Assembly: GCF_029643245.1 (NCBI RefSeq)
Contig: NZ_CP116398.1
Coordinates: forward strand, 2,294,001 to 2,358,000
Direction: 5' to 3'
Origin: Methylomonas sp. EFPC3
GTDB lineage: Bacteria; Pseudomonadota; Gammaproteobacteria; Methylococcales; Methylomonadaceae
Length of the DNA: 64,000 nt
In this document: positions 39,115 to 64,000 of the stretch, one piece after another
Position numbering within the stretch: position 1 is the first letter of the stretch
Layout: every line of letters starts with the position of its first letter
Notes under the pieces: model-generated
What the model was told of the DNA's origin: nothing
Databases searched by the model: none
What the model saw: only the letters and a program-made list of their open reading frames with translations
Translations under genes and position numbers: made by a program

Positions 39115-39260
39115 GATTGTCTCCGTGACTATTGGTTTAAAACCGACAACCATGAGACCAAGCATGGGTGCCGGGCTGAACAGGTTGGTCTACCGGAGTC
39201 ACGACCCGGCCAGCCTTGCGGCTGCCTGCCCAGCCCGACATAACGAAGGGCCGAACGCTG

Positions 39261-39295
39261 CGCACAAAAAAACCGCTGGTAAGGCGGTTGTGCGC
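39261..39295 (-). terminator. probable rho-independent terminator, leftward
   Basis: On the minus strand CCGC-CTTACCA-GCGG is followed by seven T. An outer GCGCACA/TGTGCGC pair encloses stem and T-run. It could stop leftward readthrough before the antirepressor gene. Confidence 0.55.
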
Positions 39296-39396
39296 CATGA
39301 CTTTCCGGGAGACCAATCCCAGGCACTGGATTTTGCCAGTGCTATTTCAGATTAGGCCCGGAAAAACCGTTTGTCAACAAGCATTTGACGGAGGGA

Positions 39397-57892: not shown

Positions 57893-58678
57893 TCAAGCGG
57901 CTTTTTTCCGATAGCCGGCCGCGCCCAATCCGAGTGCGCCGCTCAGGAACATCCAGACCGCGGCAGGCAGCGGGACTACCGTGGTTTGAAAACTGAAGGT
58001 GCCGATACGGGCGTTGGCGGCTCTAGCGACTTCGGCACCCAGATGGTCGAAGCCCCAACCATACCCCAAACTGCCGTTCAAGGTGAGAACATTGCCGGTT
58101 AACTGCGTTGTCACGTCGAACAATTCGAAAGCGACGGCGGAAAAACCGACTTGGTTATAGATCACCCACGCCGAACTTTCCGGCGTTTTTTGCTGCTCCG
58201 CCGGGTTGTATGCCAGGATCATATCGGCCATTAAGACTCTGTTGGTCGGTGGATCGACATCGACTCGATAACGCATCCCGCCGGCCAAGCCGATGTTTCC
58301 GGTCGCGGTGGCGGCGATGTTATTGGGATCGAAGCTAAAAGTCGTCGGGCTGTTGTGCCGATTGGTCGGATTGGGTGCGACGCTTGCGCCGTTCACGGTG
58401 AACTCAAGACCGATTGCGGAGATTTCGTTCGCCGCATAGTTCGTGAGATCGACCGGCGTGTTGGAGTCGCGCAACTGGGCAAATGTTTTCGAAGCCGCCG
58501 AAGCGTCGAAATACTCTTCTACATAAATCGACGGCGCCGGCGTGTTATCCAAGTCGATTCCGGCAGCGAACGCGTTCCGGTCCAGGTTGAGAATCAACGA
58601 ACCGCCGGCCACGGTGGCGGCGTGCGCGGATGTCGCGAGCAGCGATGCGGCGATCGCGACAACGTTTAAAGATTTCAT
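57893..58678 (-). CDS. secreted PEP-CTERM (VPLPAAVW-type) protein
   Basis: 261 residues from ATG 58678. Signal peptide MKSLNVVAIAASLLATSAHA. The C-terminus has the sorting signal: VPLPAAVWMFLSGALGLGAA followed by GYRKKAA, i.e. motif, membrane helix and basic end. The mature part is beta-rich and acidic with an N-rich segment. PEP-CTERM proteins are exported and processed by an exosortase, often with exopolysaccharide. Downstream paralogue of the next gene, sharing its layout. Confidence 0.85.
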   Translation of the reverse strand: MKSLNVVAIAASLLATSAHAATVAGGSLILNLDRNAFAAGIDLDNTPAPSIYVEEYFDASAASKTFAQLRDSNTPVDLTNYAANEISAIGLEFTVNGASVAPNPTNRHNSPTTFSFDPNNIAATATGNIGLAGGMRYRVDVDPPTNRVLMADMILAYNPAEQQKTPESSAWVIYNQVGFSAVAFELFDVTTQLTGNVLTLNGSLGYGWGFDHLGAEVARAANARIGTFSFQTTVVPLPAAVWMFLSGALGLGAAGYRKKAA

Positions 58679-59639
58679 TTTGTTTCCTTGTTTTAGAGGT
58701 GATTCCAATACCGGCCCTAACTGAAAATCCCAGGCGGCCGCGCCATTGCTGGCGGAAGCGTTCAACGCTCGGCGCTAGATCCGACGCCGGGTTTGAACCG
58801 GTGTAACTGGCGGCTGGGATAAATTGGCTCGGCACCGCCGATATTGCCGGGCAGATCGACGACGGTGCCGGCTGGCGGCTTAGGCGGACAATCTGATTTT
58901 TTCCGCGCGCTGAACCCAATAGCCCCAATAATCCGCTGCCGAATAGCCAAACGGCCGCCGGTACCGGTACTGCCGATGGCGTCAGGCTGAAAGTGCCCAG
59001 CTTGACCGACTGGCTACCATTCAACAGCAAGTTCCAGGAAAAGGATTGAGCCGTGAAATACACGTCGCCGCTCAGCGATAACTCGCCGTTGGCGTTAACC
59101 GATTCCGAGGCATTGACCAAACGGAACAGTGCCGGTTGGCCAAAGCCGTTGCTGTAGGTGAAGATGTCCCATTGACCGGCGGTTTTTTTCAAAAAGAAAT
59201 CGGCGGGATTCAGATAGGTGCCACCAGCCGCCGGCTCCATCCGGAAAGCGCCGCTCAAGCCGATTTGCCCGGCCGCGGTGTTGCCGGCGTCCATCGTCGT
59301 GGCTTGTTGCTTGCGAGCGGCCCCGTAGTTGATGGTCGAGGTATTGCTATTGACCGCCAACGACACGCTAAAGGTTCCGGTCTGGCTCAGCGCGACGCCT
59401 CCGGTTGTATCCAGAGTGATCGGCGTGGCGTTATGGTTTTTATCCCAAAAATTAGCGATATACCAACCTTCGGCACCCGGTATAGCCGAAGTAAAGGCGG
59501 AATTGTCGATTGTTAAATTCGCCACGCCGCTAACAAGAGCCGCGTTGGCATCGGTTGTTGTCAACAGTCCGCCGAATAGACCGATTGCCAGAACGCCGGC
59601 CGAGGCCAATTTGTGGCTATGTTTTTTAAATAGATACAT
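58545..59639 (-). CDS. secreted PEP-CTERM protein with abnormal C-terminal readthrough
   Basis: Signal peptide (HKLASAGVLAIGLFGGLLTT, then TDANA) and beta-rich body. The sorting signal VPVPAAVWLFGSGLLGLLGS lies at about residues 227-246 of 364, not at the end. After SARGK the frame runs on 115 residues and overlaps the next gene. In a neighbouring frame the same bases read AEKIRLSA then TAA at 58880-58882, an ordinary PEP-CTERM ending. So a single-base change near the A6 run at about 58900 has probably removed the stop. Likely original length about 253 residues. Confidence 0.8.
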   Translation of the reverse strand: MYLFKKHSHKLASAGVLAIGLFGGLLTTTDANAALVSGVANLTIDNSAFTSAIPGAEGWYIANFWDKNHNATPITLDTTGGVALSQTGTFSVSLAVNSNTSTINYGAARKQQATTMDAGNTAAGQIGLSGAFRMEPAAGGTYLNPADFFLKKTAGQWDIFTYSNGFGQPALFRLVNASESVNANGELSLSGDVYFTAQSFSWNLLLNGSQSVKLGTFSLTPSAVPVPAAVWLFGSGLLGLLGSARGKNQIVRLSRQPAPSSICPAISAVPSQFIPAASYTGSNPASDLAPSVERFRQQWRGRLGFSVRAGIGITSKTRKQNEIFKRCRDRRIAARDIRARRHRGRRFVDSQPGPERVRCRNRLG

Positions 59640-59734: not shown

Positions 59735-59815
59735 GCCCGCCGGTAACCCGGCCGTCTTGTTCCAAGACCCGTGGCTTTCCGGCTCCGCCTCGCGGCGGGT
59801 GTGGCGTTGCGCCGC
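59735..59815 (-). promoter_or_regulatory. probable cyclic-di-GMP-I (GEMM) riboswitch
   Basis: On the minus strand: CGCCACACC, a stem CCGCC-GCGA-GGCGG with a GNRA loop, GGAGCCGGAAAGCCACGGG, a hairpin GTCTTG-GAA-CAAGAC, and GGCCGGGTTACCGG. Order and key bases (GNRA-capped P1b, AAAGCC, closing GGGTTACCG) follow the GEMM-I consensus. It lies about 95 bp upstream of the first PEP-CTERM gene; a GACACGGC/GCCGCGTC hairpin between may be the expression platform. Confidence 0.65.
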
Positions 59816-60142
59816 AATCCTTGCGGCATCGCTGCTTCCGCGAACGATTACTGCCTGAGCTTCCAGCAATTCCTTCCAATAACTCGAGCTCCCGACGGTC
59901 TCCTCACAAAACGCAGGCGGAGTTGCGGCGTAGCGACGCTGCAACGGAAAGGCCGCGAAGGCAGATTAAAGTCGGGTTTTCGAGTCAATTAGCGACGAGC
60001 AAACACTAGGCCAAATCTGATTCGCCTTGAATAACAAGGCTTGGCACGGCGAATCCGGCGCCGGCCCTCGAAAACTAAGTTATCTCACGCAATCGCCGCG
60101 TGAAATCCCGCGTCGCCGCCGGAACTGACGCGAATCCGGGTG
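59816..60142. other. intergenic region upstream of the riboswitch
   Basis: About 330 bp with no gene I can support. It should hold the promoter of the PEP-CTERM operon and the 3' end of the ABC permease transcript. I see no clear terminator or repeat. Confidence 0.4.
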
Positions 60143-61151: not shown

Positions 61152-64000
61152 TCAACTTCTCAATGAGTGGCCGGTTAATTTAAGAAACAGGTTTTCCAGA
61201 TTCGGCGTGGCGACCGTCAAACCTTCCAACGAAATATTCAGCCGAGTCAGTTGGGCGATCGCCGCTTCCACATTGGCGGTGACGAACTCCACCGTTTCGG
61301 CGCCGGCACTCACCGCGAACGGCAAGCCTGGAAGCTCCGCCAGCCCGCTGGCCCGCGGCAGACGGATCATTACGCCGTCGAAATGCTCCTGCAACAGGTT
61401 CTCCGGCGTGTCCTGGACGATAATCCGGCCTTGATCCATGATGGCGATTTCGTCGCAAAGCTGCTCGGCTTCCTCCATGTAATGCGTGGTCAGGACGATG
61501 GTCTTGCCGCGCTGTTTGATGTCCCGAATCAAGCTCCAGAAGTTGTGGCGCGATTGCGGGTCCAGACCGGTGGTGGGTTCGTCCAGAAACAAAATGTCCG
61601 GATCGTTGATCAAGGCGATGCCCAGCAACAAGCGTTGCCGCTGGCCGCCGGACAGCTTGCGGGAATCGCGGTTGATATAGTCCCCTAGCGCGCAGGCCTC
61701 GATAATGTCGTCGAGCGGCAGACTACGCGGGTAAAGCTTCTGAAACAGTTGCAAGCATTCCTTCACCGTCAAGGTTTCCGGCAAGGCGGTATGTTGAAAC
61801 TGAATCCCGATGTGCTGGCTGTAGCGTCTATCGATCGGTTTGCCGCGAAACAGGACGTCGCCTTTGCTCGGCTTGAGTATGCCTTCCAGCATTTCCAGCG
61901 TAGAGGTTTTGCCGGCGCCGTTCGGTCCCAGCAAGCCGAAGCAGGTCCCGGCTTGCAGCTCGAAACTAACGCCGGCAACCGCCGTCGTTTCTCCATAGTG
62001 TTTCTCCAAACCACTGACGCTCAGCAGACTACTAGTCTGGTCCGGCTCGACCAGCGGCGGCACGGCGAGCGTTGACGGCTGAGCGGCCGGCTCGGGATTC
62101 AGTTCGCGCAACCAAGCCGCGCAATACGGCTGCTTGACTACCGTGAAATGCTCACCCTTGGCCTTGATCACATTGACGGCTTGAAAATAATCGTCCCACT
62201 CGTTGGCCGCCAACCAGCCTTTACTGCCTTCGGCGATCACCAGCGTCACCCGATACGGCAACTTGGCGGTGTAACGGTAACGGGCGGTAATCGACGCCTC
62301 GGTCACTTGCCAGATTTTCCGAAAATGCCCGGCGTCCAGATTCGGAACGATGTCAGCCAATAACGACGCAAAGCAGTCTTTCCACTCCGCGTAGGGCTTG
62401 GTTTTTAAAATTTCGGCAATCGCGCCGCGATAGGGCTCGGGCGAAATTCCGGCGTTCGTCAGCATGAAGTTGCAGAATGCCTTGACCGAGGCCTTGTCCA
62501 CGCTGCTTTGCCGCAGCAACAAACCGCTATCGATCAACACCACTTCGCCGATTTCGTAAGCCGAATCTTGCAACTGGCGCAGCATTTCGTAGACCACGGT
62601 GCCGCCGTAACTGTGCGCGTACAAATTGATCCGCCCTTGCGGCCAAACGCTTTTGATCTGGGCGATATTGTGCGCGGCCATGTCCTCGACCGTGGTCGCC
62701 GGCGGCTCGTCGCTATAGCCTTTCATTTGCAAGCCGTAAACCGGCCCTTCCCGCTTCAGGCACTCCGCCAGTTCGAAATAGCCGTCGCTCAAGCCGGGCA
62801 TGCCCGGCACGATAAACGTCGGAATCCCCGAGCGCAGATTGAGCAAATACGCTGAATTGGTCAGTTTTTCCAGCGGGCGCTCTAGGTAATCGCTCAAGGC
62901 TTTTATCGTCGGATATTTGAAAATATCGGCAAGATTCAGCGAGCTGTCGGGGAGAATGGCGTTAATCCGGCTGATCAGTTGCACGGTCAGCAAGGAGTGG
63001 CCGCCCAACTCAAAAAAATTGTCGTTCACGCCGACCCGCTCGACGTTCAACAGCGCCCGCCAAATTTCGGCCAGTTGTTGCTCCAGCTGGCCGCGCGGCG
63101 GGCTGAAATCCCCGCGCCCGGCCAGCCAGCTCTCGGCTTGCTGTGCCAGTGCCTTACGGTCGATTTTGCCGCCCGGCGTCATCGGCAGGGTATCGAGTGC
63201 CAGCACCGCCAGCGGCACCATGTAATCGGGCAAGGTGCGGCGCAGAAAAGCCTTCATGACTTCTGGCTCGGGCGGATTGCCGTCGTGGGTATAAAACGCC
63301 AACAGTTGCTTGTTATTCTGGCGTTCGCTGACGACCAGCACCGGCAGTTTGACAGCTGGATGCCTAGCCAGCGCAGTCTCGATTTCGCCTAACTCCACCC
63401 GAAACCCGCGAATCTTGACCTGATGGTCGCGGCGACCGATAAAGGCCAGATTGCCGTCGTCCAACCAGCGCACCAGATCGCCGGTTTTATACAGTTTGCC
63501 GGCACCGAACGGATTGGCGATGAATTTCTCGGCGGTCAATTCGGGCTGATTCAGATAGCCGCGAGCGACACCGGCGCCGGCGATGTGCAGTTCGCCCGGC
63601 ACGCCAATCGGCACCGGTTTGAGTGCGCTGTCCAGCACGTAGACTTGGGTGTTGGCCAGCGGCTTGCCGAGCGGTATCGCTTGGTCGGGATCGTGGGCCG
63701 GGTCTATCGGGTGCAGCAACGAAATGACGGTGGTTTCGGTCGGGCCGTAGGTGTTGATCACCGCGATGTTCGGGTTGCGTTGCCGCCAAGCCCGATAGTT
63801 TTGCGCTTCGGCTTTTTCGCCGCCGATCACCACCCGGCTCAGCGCGGTGTCGCTGAAGTCTTGGTCCACCAGCGTATGCCAGTAGGCGGTGGGCAGGTTG
63901 ATCAGACTGACTCGGTGGCGTTGCAGCAGGCTTTTTAAGTAAGCCACATCGGTGAAACGCTCGCCGTCCATCATCACCACCGCCCCGCCGCTGAGCAGGG
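61152..64000 (-). CDS. non-ribosomal peptide synthetase (A-PCP-TE) fused to an ABC transporter ATPase, 5' end outside window
   Basis: The frame is open past position 64000. Numbering from the GTG at 63980: adenylation domain with A5 NTYGPTE (76-82), A7 YKTGDL (164-169), A8 (182-200), A10 TPGGKIDRKA (268-277); carrier protein with LGGHSL (325-330, S329); type I thioesterase with S457 in AHSYGG, D484 and H611; a proline-rich linker (628-648); then an ABC ATPase with Walker A GPNGAGKT (685-692), signature LSGGQ (776-780), Walker B ILFLDEP (796-802) and H-loop TTHYMEE. All catalytic residues are present. The last module loads, releases and, with the permease, exports a peptide whose identity cannot be read here. 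Confidence 0.93.
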   Translation of the reverse strand, partial: LLSGGAVVMMDGERFTDVAYLKSLLQRHRVSLINLPTAYWHTLVDQDFSDTALSRVVIGGEKAEAQNYRAWRQRNPNIAVINTYGPTETTVISLLHPIDPAHDPDQAIPLGKPLANTQVYVLDSALKPVPIGVPGELHIAGAGVARGYLNQPELTAEKFIANPFGAGKLYKTGDLVRWLDDGNLAFIGRRDHQVKIRGFRVELGEIETALARHPAVKLPVLVVSERQNNKQLLAFYTHDGNPPEPEVMKAFLRRTLPDYMVPLAVLALDTLPMTPGGKIDRKALAQQAESWLAGRGDFSPPRGQLEQQLAEIWRALLNVERVGVNDNFFELGGHSLLTVQLISRINAILPDSSLNLADIFKYPTIKALSDYLERPLEKLTNSAYLLNLRSGIPTFIVPGMPGLSDGYFELAECLKREGPVYGLQMKGYSDEPPATTVEDMAAHNIAQIKSVWPQGRINLYAHSYGGTVVYEMLRQLQDSAYEIGEVVLIDSGLLLRQSSVDKASVKAFCNFMLTNAGISPEPYRGAIAEILKTKPYAEWKDCFASLLADIVPNLDAGHFRKIWQVTEASITARYRYTAKLPYRVTLVIAEGSKGWLAANEWDDYFQAVNVIKAKGEHFTVVKQPYCAAWLRELNPEPAAQPSTLAVPPLVEPDQTSSLLSVSGLEKHYGETTAVAGVSFELQAGTCFGLLGPNGAGKTSTLEMLEGILKPSKGDVLFRGKPIDRRYSQHIGIQFQHTALPETLTVKECLQLFQKLYPRSLPLDDIIEACALGDYINRDSRKLSGGQRQRLLLGIALINDPDILFLDEPTTGLDPQSRHNFWSLIRDIKQRGKTIVLTTHYMEEAEQLCDEIAIMDQGRIIVQDTPENLLQEHFDGVMIRLPRASGLAELPGLPFAVSAGAETVEFVTANVEAAIAQLTRLNISLEGLTVATPNLENLFLKLTGHSLRS

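Follow-up and report, generated by a model that had tools for sequence, protein, structure and literature searches.

The window analysed here is a stretch of 64,000 nucleotides (bases 2294001-2358000) of the 4.44-Mb single-contig genome of Methylomonas sp. EFPC3, G000 among the genomes compared. At its far end lies a minus-strand nonribosomal peptide synthetase (NRPS) gene, an ATG-initiated ORF of 1670 codons (genome C1 2355152-2360164) which encodes condensation (C), adenylation (A), carrier (T), thioesterase (TE) and ABC ATPase domains in a single frame. Its stop side is at window position 61152 and the frame is open to the window edge; about 57% of the protein, the C-terminal share, falls inside the window and the remainder lies beyond the window end. 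Pfam placed Condensation at residues 57-500 (beyond the window), AMP-binding at 521-871, PP-binding at 1029-1094, Thioesterase at 1117-1213 and ABC_tran at 1398-1532, all five above the curated cut-offs. The carrier GGHS, TE HSYGG, Walker A GPNGAGKT, LSGGQ, ILFLDEP and H-loop TTH motifs are unbroken. With HHIVTDG, GGHS and HSYGG preserved, the first four domains make up an NRPS termination module (C-A-T-TE), and the fifth, with Walker A and B, signature, H-loop and a linked ABC-2 permease, has the features of an ABC-2 exporter ATPase. The TE Ser, Asp and His occupy the same positions in the aligned fused and unfused relatives. At A-domain pocket position 239 (GrsA numbering), a glutamate may hint at a basic residue as substrate. 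The ORF listing, Pfam and the motif check bear out the frame, strand, coordinates and domain order with unbroken motifs given in a first-pass annotation of this DNA; its 2-bp distance to the permease needs correction, as the gap from stop codon to ATG is 1 bp (TGA G ATG). The features are collected in Table 1.

Table 1. Features at the NRPS-exporter locus, in window coordinates.
Feature	Position	Strand	Evidence
C-terminal portion of C-A-T-TE-ABC gene	61152..64000	-	ORFs, Pfam; in frame in five further genomes; gene extends to C1 2360164
Second adenylation domain, C-terminal portion	63129..64000	-	AMP-binding and AMP-binding_C, pocket motifs
Carrier domain with GGHS serine	62871..63089	-	PP-binding 1029-1094
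Thioesterase domain with HSYGG nucleophile	62100..62837	-	Thioesterase 44.8 bits, cut-off 26.4; alignment
Pro/Ala-rich TE-ATPase linker	62028..62099	-	Sequence and length vary over the six fused genomes
ABC ATPase domain with DrrA-like C-terminal extension	61155..62027	-	ABC_tran 96.7 bits, cut-off 25; TIGR01188 full-length but below cut-off
ABC-2 permease, 335 aa	60143..61150	-	PF12698 and PF01061 above cut-off; adjoins the fusion in 6/6 fused genomes
Hairpin and T-rich tail past the permease, possible operon end	60082..60106	-	Weak: the scan gave fewer sites than its shuffles

Two other places in the window carry RNA features. A c-di-GMP-I riboswitch aptamer (59739-59815, minus strand) lies upstream of a 364-aa ORF (58545-59639), which ends the next transcript on the same strand and by eye resembles PEP-CTERM-type proteins. 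Adjoining matches to C4 antisense RNA and isrK (39164-39342, minus strand) suggest a P4-like or other prophage remnant.

The TE-ABC gene and the permease gene are the final pair of an operon on one strand. Upstream of them are genes for a 1736-aa protein with ketosynthase (KS), C, A and three carrier-domain matches (C1 2360240-2365450), an FcoT protein (C1 2365477-2366022), two TauD-family oxygenases (C1 2366019-2366915 and 2366983-2367879) and an AMP-forming acyl ligase (C1 2368000-2369619). The KS has Cys and His motifs, and the 1736-aa KS-C-A-T synthetase gave no match to an acyltransferase domain. The closest solved relatives of the oxygenases (best E 5.8e-66 and 2.5e-64) include ScoE and also chains named (3R)-3-[(carboxymethyl)amino]fatty acid oxygenase/decarboxylase. 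For the FcoT protein, two uncharacterised chains score better than Rv0098 (E 9.6e-19), which it also matches. The two oxygenases are 73% identical; such a tandem pair is present in the window's genome, G005, G006 and G007, and one copy in the remaining clusters examined.

The gene set of an isonitrile lipopeptide cluster (acyl ligase, ScoE-like, FcoT-like, carrier and NRPS) is thus complete, and in mycobacteria such lipopeptides serve as copper-binding chalkophores, according to the available text of PMC9600254. The scores stay below the NCBIfam equivalog cut-offs (281.3 and 261.7 of 400 bits for ScoE, 136.5 of 250 for ScoD). We compared the ScoE residues in 17 copies from 13 of the 15 genomes with an FcoT cluster, leaving out G071 and the incomplete copy of G201. 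The iron triad (H132, D134, H295), Y96 and Y101 are present in all 17, R157 is retained and Y97 is F in the copies aligned. R195 is Q in 17/17, and H299 is replaced by S, G, A or K in every copy. Both residues are required for ScoE activity, and R195Q and H299Q gave no product in vitro, as stated in the accessible portion of PMC7949033. Because of these two replacements and the missed cut-offs, the plain label of an isonitrile lipopeptide cluster was held back; we call the pathway ScoE/FcoT-like, with its nitrogen chemistry and cargo uncertain. Judged from the genes, the cargo is likely a ScoE/FcoT-type modified acyl-peptide and possibly a metal chelator.

The A cores of the two modules are alike in Methylomonas DNA (96.4% identity over 1244 bp in G006, L101; 83.1% over 1257 bp in G000), against 14-30% protein identity over most of the C domains. 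The A core looks homogenised by recent gene conversion in Methylomonas. The repeat may explain the contig break in G005, where the contig ends within the first A domain and no TE was found elsewhere in the genome.

We searched 311 Methylococcales genomes with the 576-aa TE-ABC stretch (E <= 1e-90) and found it in one stop-free frame in six. Relative to G000, identity is 97% in G007 (same species), 90% in G006 (same genus), 71% in G201 and 63% in G165 (other genera) and 56% in G261 (another family). FcoT was found in 15 of the 311 genomes and in 0 of 14 control genomes. Six of these clusters carry the TE-ABC fusion, and eight have a KS-C-A-T-TE protein ending shortly past the TE, the frame of one of them (G071, on two short contigs) being cut by its contig. 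The fifteenth is the truncated cluster of G005.

The exporter genes of the two kinds of cluster are mutually exclusive. Homology searches of the neighbourhoods found ABC and permease in 6/6 fused clusters, with no EmrA, EmrB or OEP over about 17-34 kb per genome (overlaps counted once). The eight unfused clusters yielded no ABC and permease in the same searches; EmrA with EmrB is present in seven (exception G071) and OEP in seven (exception G029). By their Pfam names, EmrA is an HlyD-type fusion protein, EmrB an MFS permease and OEP an outer-membrane efflux protein. The fused ABC with its permease therefore occupies the place of the relatives' efflux machine, and this natural exchange supports an exporter function, as does a distant fusion in Tsukamurella with a permease of its own (see below). 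The permease matches ABC-2 families in Pfam. The curated DrrA and DrrB models were not reached, with 229.1 of 312.45 bits for TIGR01188 and 71.9 of 223.05 bits for TIGR01247, and the closest solved relatives of the fused ATPase are ABCA lipid transporters. An MMPL-family transporter gene lies 3' of the permease in G165 (L103:14189-16294, by Pfam) and G261 (L137:12617-15343, by 53% homology). Beside the EmrAB genes of G063 (L132:5133-10800) are an ECF sigma factor, FecR, a TonB-dependent receptor and a DJ-1/PfpI protein, and a partial TonB receptor is found near the unfused cluster of G037. These receptor genes would fit metallophore uptake; the homology search found no match to the G063 receptor near the other clusters.

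We propose that the fused ATPase drives export coupled to release, with the synthetase held at the membrane and a ScoE/FcoT-type product as cargo, and we put the probability of this reading at roughly 0.6. The C-A-T-TE module would append the last amino acid, after which the TE would cut the chain from the carrier, releasing the acyl-peptide within reach of the transporter. The ATPase domain would pair with the ABC-2 permease encoded by the next gene, presumably as two ATPases on two permeases, giving two synthetase chains per exporter. The synthetase would thereby be kept at the inner membrane, release would take place at the exporter and ATP turnover would expel the product. The first-pass annotation had also proposed that the covalent link places release next to export and fixes the synthetase to the membrane. 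Of this, the TE-ATPase fusion with its adjoining permease is strongly supported and a working exporter of the two is a supported inference; coupling of release and export, and tethering of the synthetase through the ATPase, are what we infer beyond it. The distribution counts against coupled export, as the fusion is confined to 6 of 15 FcoT clusters and their sisters manage without it. So does cereulide synthesis, in which CesC contacted the C domains and not the TE, as the available text of PMC7527721 describes; closeness to the TE is thus no known requirement.

The same system provides the main alternative, in which the fused ATPase and permease mainly anchor or organise the synthetase at the membrane and the product exits elsewhere. 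In Bacillus cereus, CesCD tethers CesAB to the membrane through the C domain of CesA and is critical for cereulide synthesis itself (PMC7527721, text available in part). In Methylomonas, however, the Walker A, signature, Walker B and H-loop motifs of the fused ATPase are unbroken, and the unfused sister clusters have a complete efflux set in place of the ABC and permease. We regard such a mainly organising role as unlikely.

It is also conceivable that only the gene is fused and its product is cleaved, or that an internal start yields additional free ATPase, either of which would leave an ordinary separate exporter at work. In an AlphaFold model of the TE-ABC stretch (12 rows, mean pLDDT 72.7), residues 242-283, which comprise the TE end and linker, are below 50, and such a low-confidence linker would suit cleavage. 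In G000, G007, G006 and G165, the stretch from the TE histidine region to Walker A gave no ATG, GTG or TTG accompanied by a Shine-Dalgarno-like motif. Near the TE end, a single GTG preceded by GGAG occurs in G201 and likewise in G261, which makes separate synthesis of the ATPase possible in those two. Against this stands the frame itself, which is held across six genomes although the linker differs among them in sequence and in whole-codon length. Separate ATPase production is accordingly an idea to which we give rather little weight, and separate translation in particular is unsupported in the four genomes without such a start.

The ATPase probably came from outside the synthetase. In the class sample of 369 genomes (E <= 1e-75), 72 of 368 other genomes have an ATPase of this kind without the TE. 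These standalone homologues are mostly open frames of about 293-445 aa and align from about residue 284 of the 576, which places the join where an ATPase gene would start. At 29 of 32 standalone loci searched, a permease 41-52% identical to that of the fusion adjoins. A common gammaproteobacterial ATPase-permease pair is the likely source, as far as these comparisons go. In the ATPase tree, which included 34 of 35 standalone loci (L023 had no usable frame), the fused domains fall outside the clade of the 31 nearest standalone ATPases (93/98); five of the fused domains form a clade (99/95), and the placement of G261 lacks support. In the TE (14 rows) and KS (15 rows) trees, both rooted at their midpoints, the fused G261 joins the eight unfused clusters (100/100) and is separated from the remaining fused genomes. 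Counting fusion origins on the ATPase tree gave two changes, with one change in 16% of 200 bootstrap trees. The simplest reading of these trees would be a single early fusion, later lost along with the change of exporter; two separate fusions within Methylococcales are possible.

Beyond this order, we searched the 369 genomes of the class and 299 of the phylum at E <= 1e-75, scoring at most 3-4 candidates per genome. Among the Pseudomonadota genomes sampled, the TE-ABC fusion occurs only in Methylococcales, in searches insensitive to a fusion as remote as the following one. In a plasmid collection, 1 of 653 matched records had at least 80% query coverage, that of Tsukamurella tyrosinosolvens (NZ_LR134469.1), with a TE-ABC region 28% identical. 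Its NRPS (WP_074850851.1) has 3757 aa, in which C, A and carrier domains were each matched three times, alongside a TE and ABC_tran. Downstream of the NRPS gene lie an ABC-2 permease gene, which overlaps it, and an MbtH gene. With the Tsukamurella TE-ABC region as query, 6 of 146 records were covered to at least 80%, namely itself and five from Streptomyces, in which NRPS and ATPase are annotated as separate genes. In the one Streptomyces record examined, 34 bp separate the end of the NRPS from the ATPase gene, with a permease after it. The Tsukamurella fusion thus most likely arose independently, from neighbouring genes in another phylum, if these gene orders are a guide. Restriction to one lineage, which the first-pass annotation had suggested examining, holds within the sampled Pseudomonadota and fails with this unrelated case from Actinomycetota.

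These data also bear on whether the fusion is real yet neutral, a read-through of adjacent genes without functional coupling. The separate adjacent genes in Streptomyces and the unfused Methylococcales clusters are compatible with such an accident. That the fusion persists in two families of Methylococcales, at identities as low as 56%, and recurs in another phylum with the same order of partners argues otherwise, and we consider neutrality very unlikely. Chance or an assembly or sequencing error at the junction can be dismissed, since nothing at the junction points to one and the same in-frame junction occurs in six genomes, two of them (G000 and G261) single-contig assemblies; the stop or frameshift between TE and ATPase that would have spoken against the fusion is absent from all five further genomes. 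Upstream of the carrier domain, G165 alone of the six has broken frames (L103:7860-11021), in which the C and A domains of the second module are split across several frames and the TE-ABC frame is whole; this may be either decay or sequencing errors.

How NRPS products are handed over from the last enzyme to an exporter is mostly unknown. Here the release and export steps lie in one chain, and relatives have the same kind of TE unlinked and with a different exporter. As both variants exist, the coupling of release and export that we favour is testable through one gene in a methanotroph. The arrangement consists of known domains in an order that is apparently unreported, conserved and recurrent. 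Among the matches listed for open-licence PubMed Central, titles and abstract beginnings describe no NRPS-ABC or NRPS-transporter fusion and no isonitriles or such clusters in methanotrophs, and an open-licence PubMed Central search found no published study of the Tsukamurella protein. Methanotrophs depend on copper for methane oxidation. The cargo operon is of interest in its own right, as a ScoE/FcoT-type lipopeptide pathway; pathways of this kind have been linked to mycobacterial copper uptake (PMC9600254, in the text available). A genome-mining paper on methanotroph metabolites nowhere mentions isonitrile, chalkophore or ABC transporter in its main text (PMC11964084). A broader and rather doubtful proposition is that covalent synthetase-exporter machines, in which the TE passes its product directly to an ABC-2 exporter, have at least two origins. 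One of them, in methanotrophs, would serve an undescribed ScoE/FcoT-type lipopeptide metallophore, possibly a copper carrier besides methanobactin, and the oxygenase involved, with its changed active site, would generate a nitrogen function different from that of ScoE.

Among known systems, DrrAB-type ABC-2 exporters share the ATPase and permease families and the gene order; here, the ATPase bears an NRPS module at its N-terminus and the DrrA and DrrB model cut-offs are unmet. The Tsukamurella protein is alike in being a single NRPS-TE-ABC chain followed by an ABC-2 permease gene, and differs in its three modules, the low identity of its TE-ABC region and a neighbourhood in which no ScoE or FcoT gene is annotated. 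Known isonitrile lipopeptide clusters terminate, we assume, in a reductase domain. The operon has in common with them (scoA-E, Rv0096-0101; PMC9600254 and PMC7949033, each as far as available) the acyl ligase, ScoE-like oxygenase, FcoT/ScoD-like protein, carrier and NRPS genes, whereas the KS, the terminal TE-ABC, the two oxygenase copies of the window's genome, the replaced ScoE residues and the missed equivalog cut-offs set it apart. A functional parallel is CesAB-CesCD, an NRPS ending in a TE with an ATPase-permease pair from the same locus, whose ATPase keeps the synthetase membrane-bound. In the available text of PMC7527721, that link is non-covalent and runs through the C domains without TE contact, whereas in Methylomonas a single chain carries both synthetase and ATPase, the latter attached at the TE.
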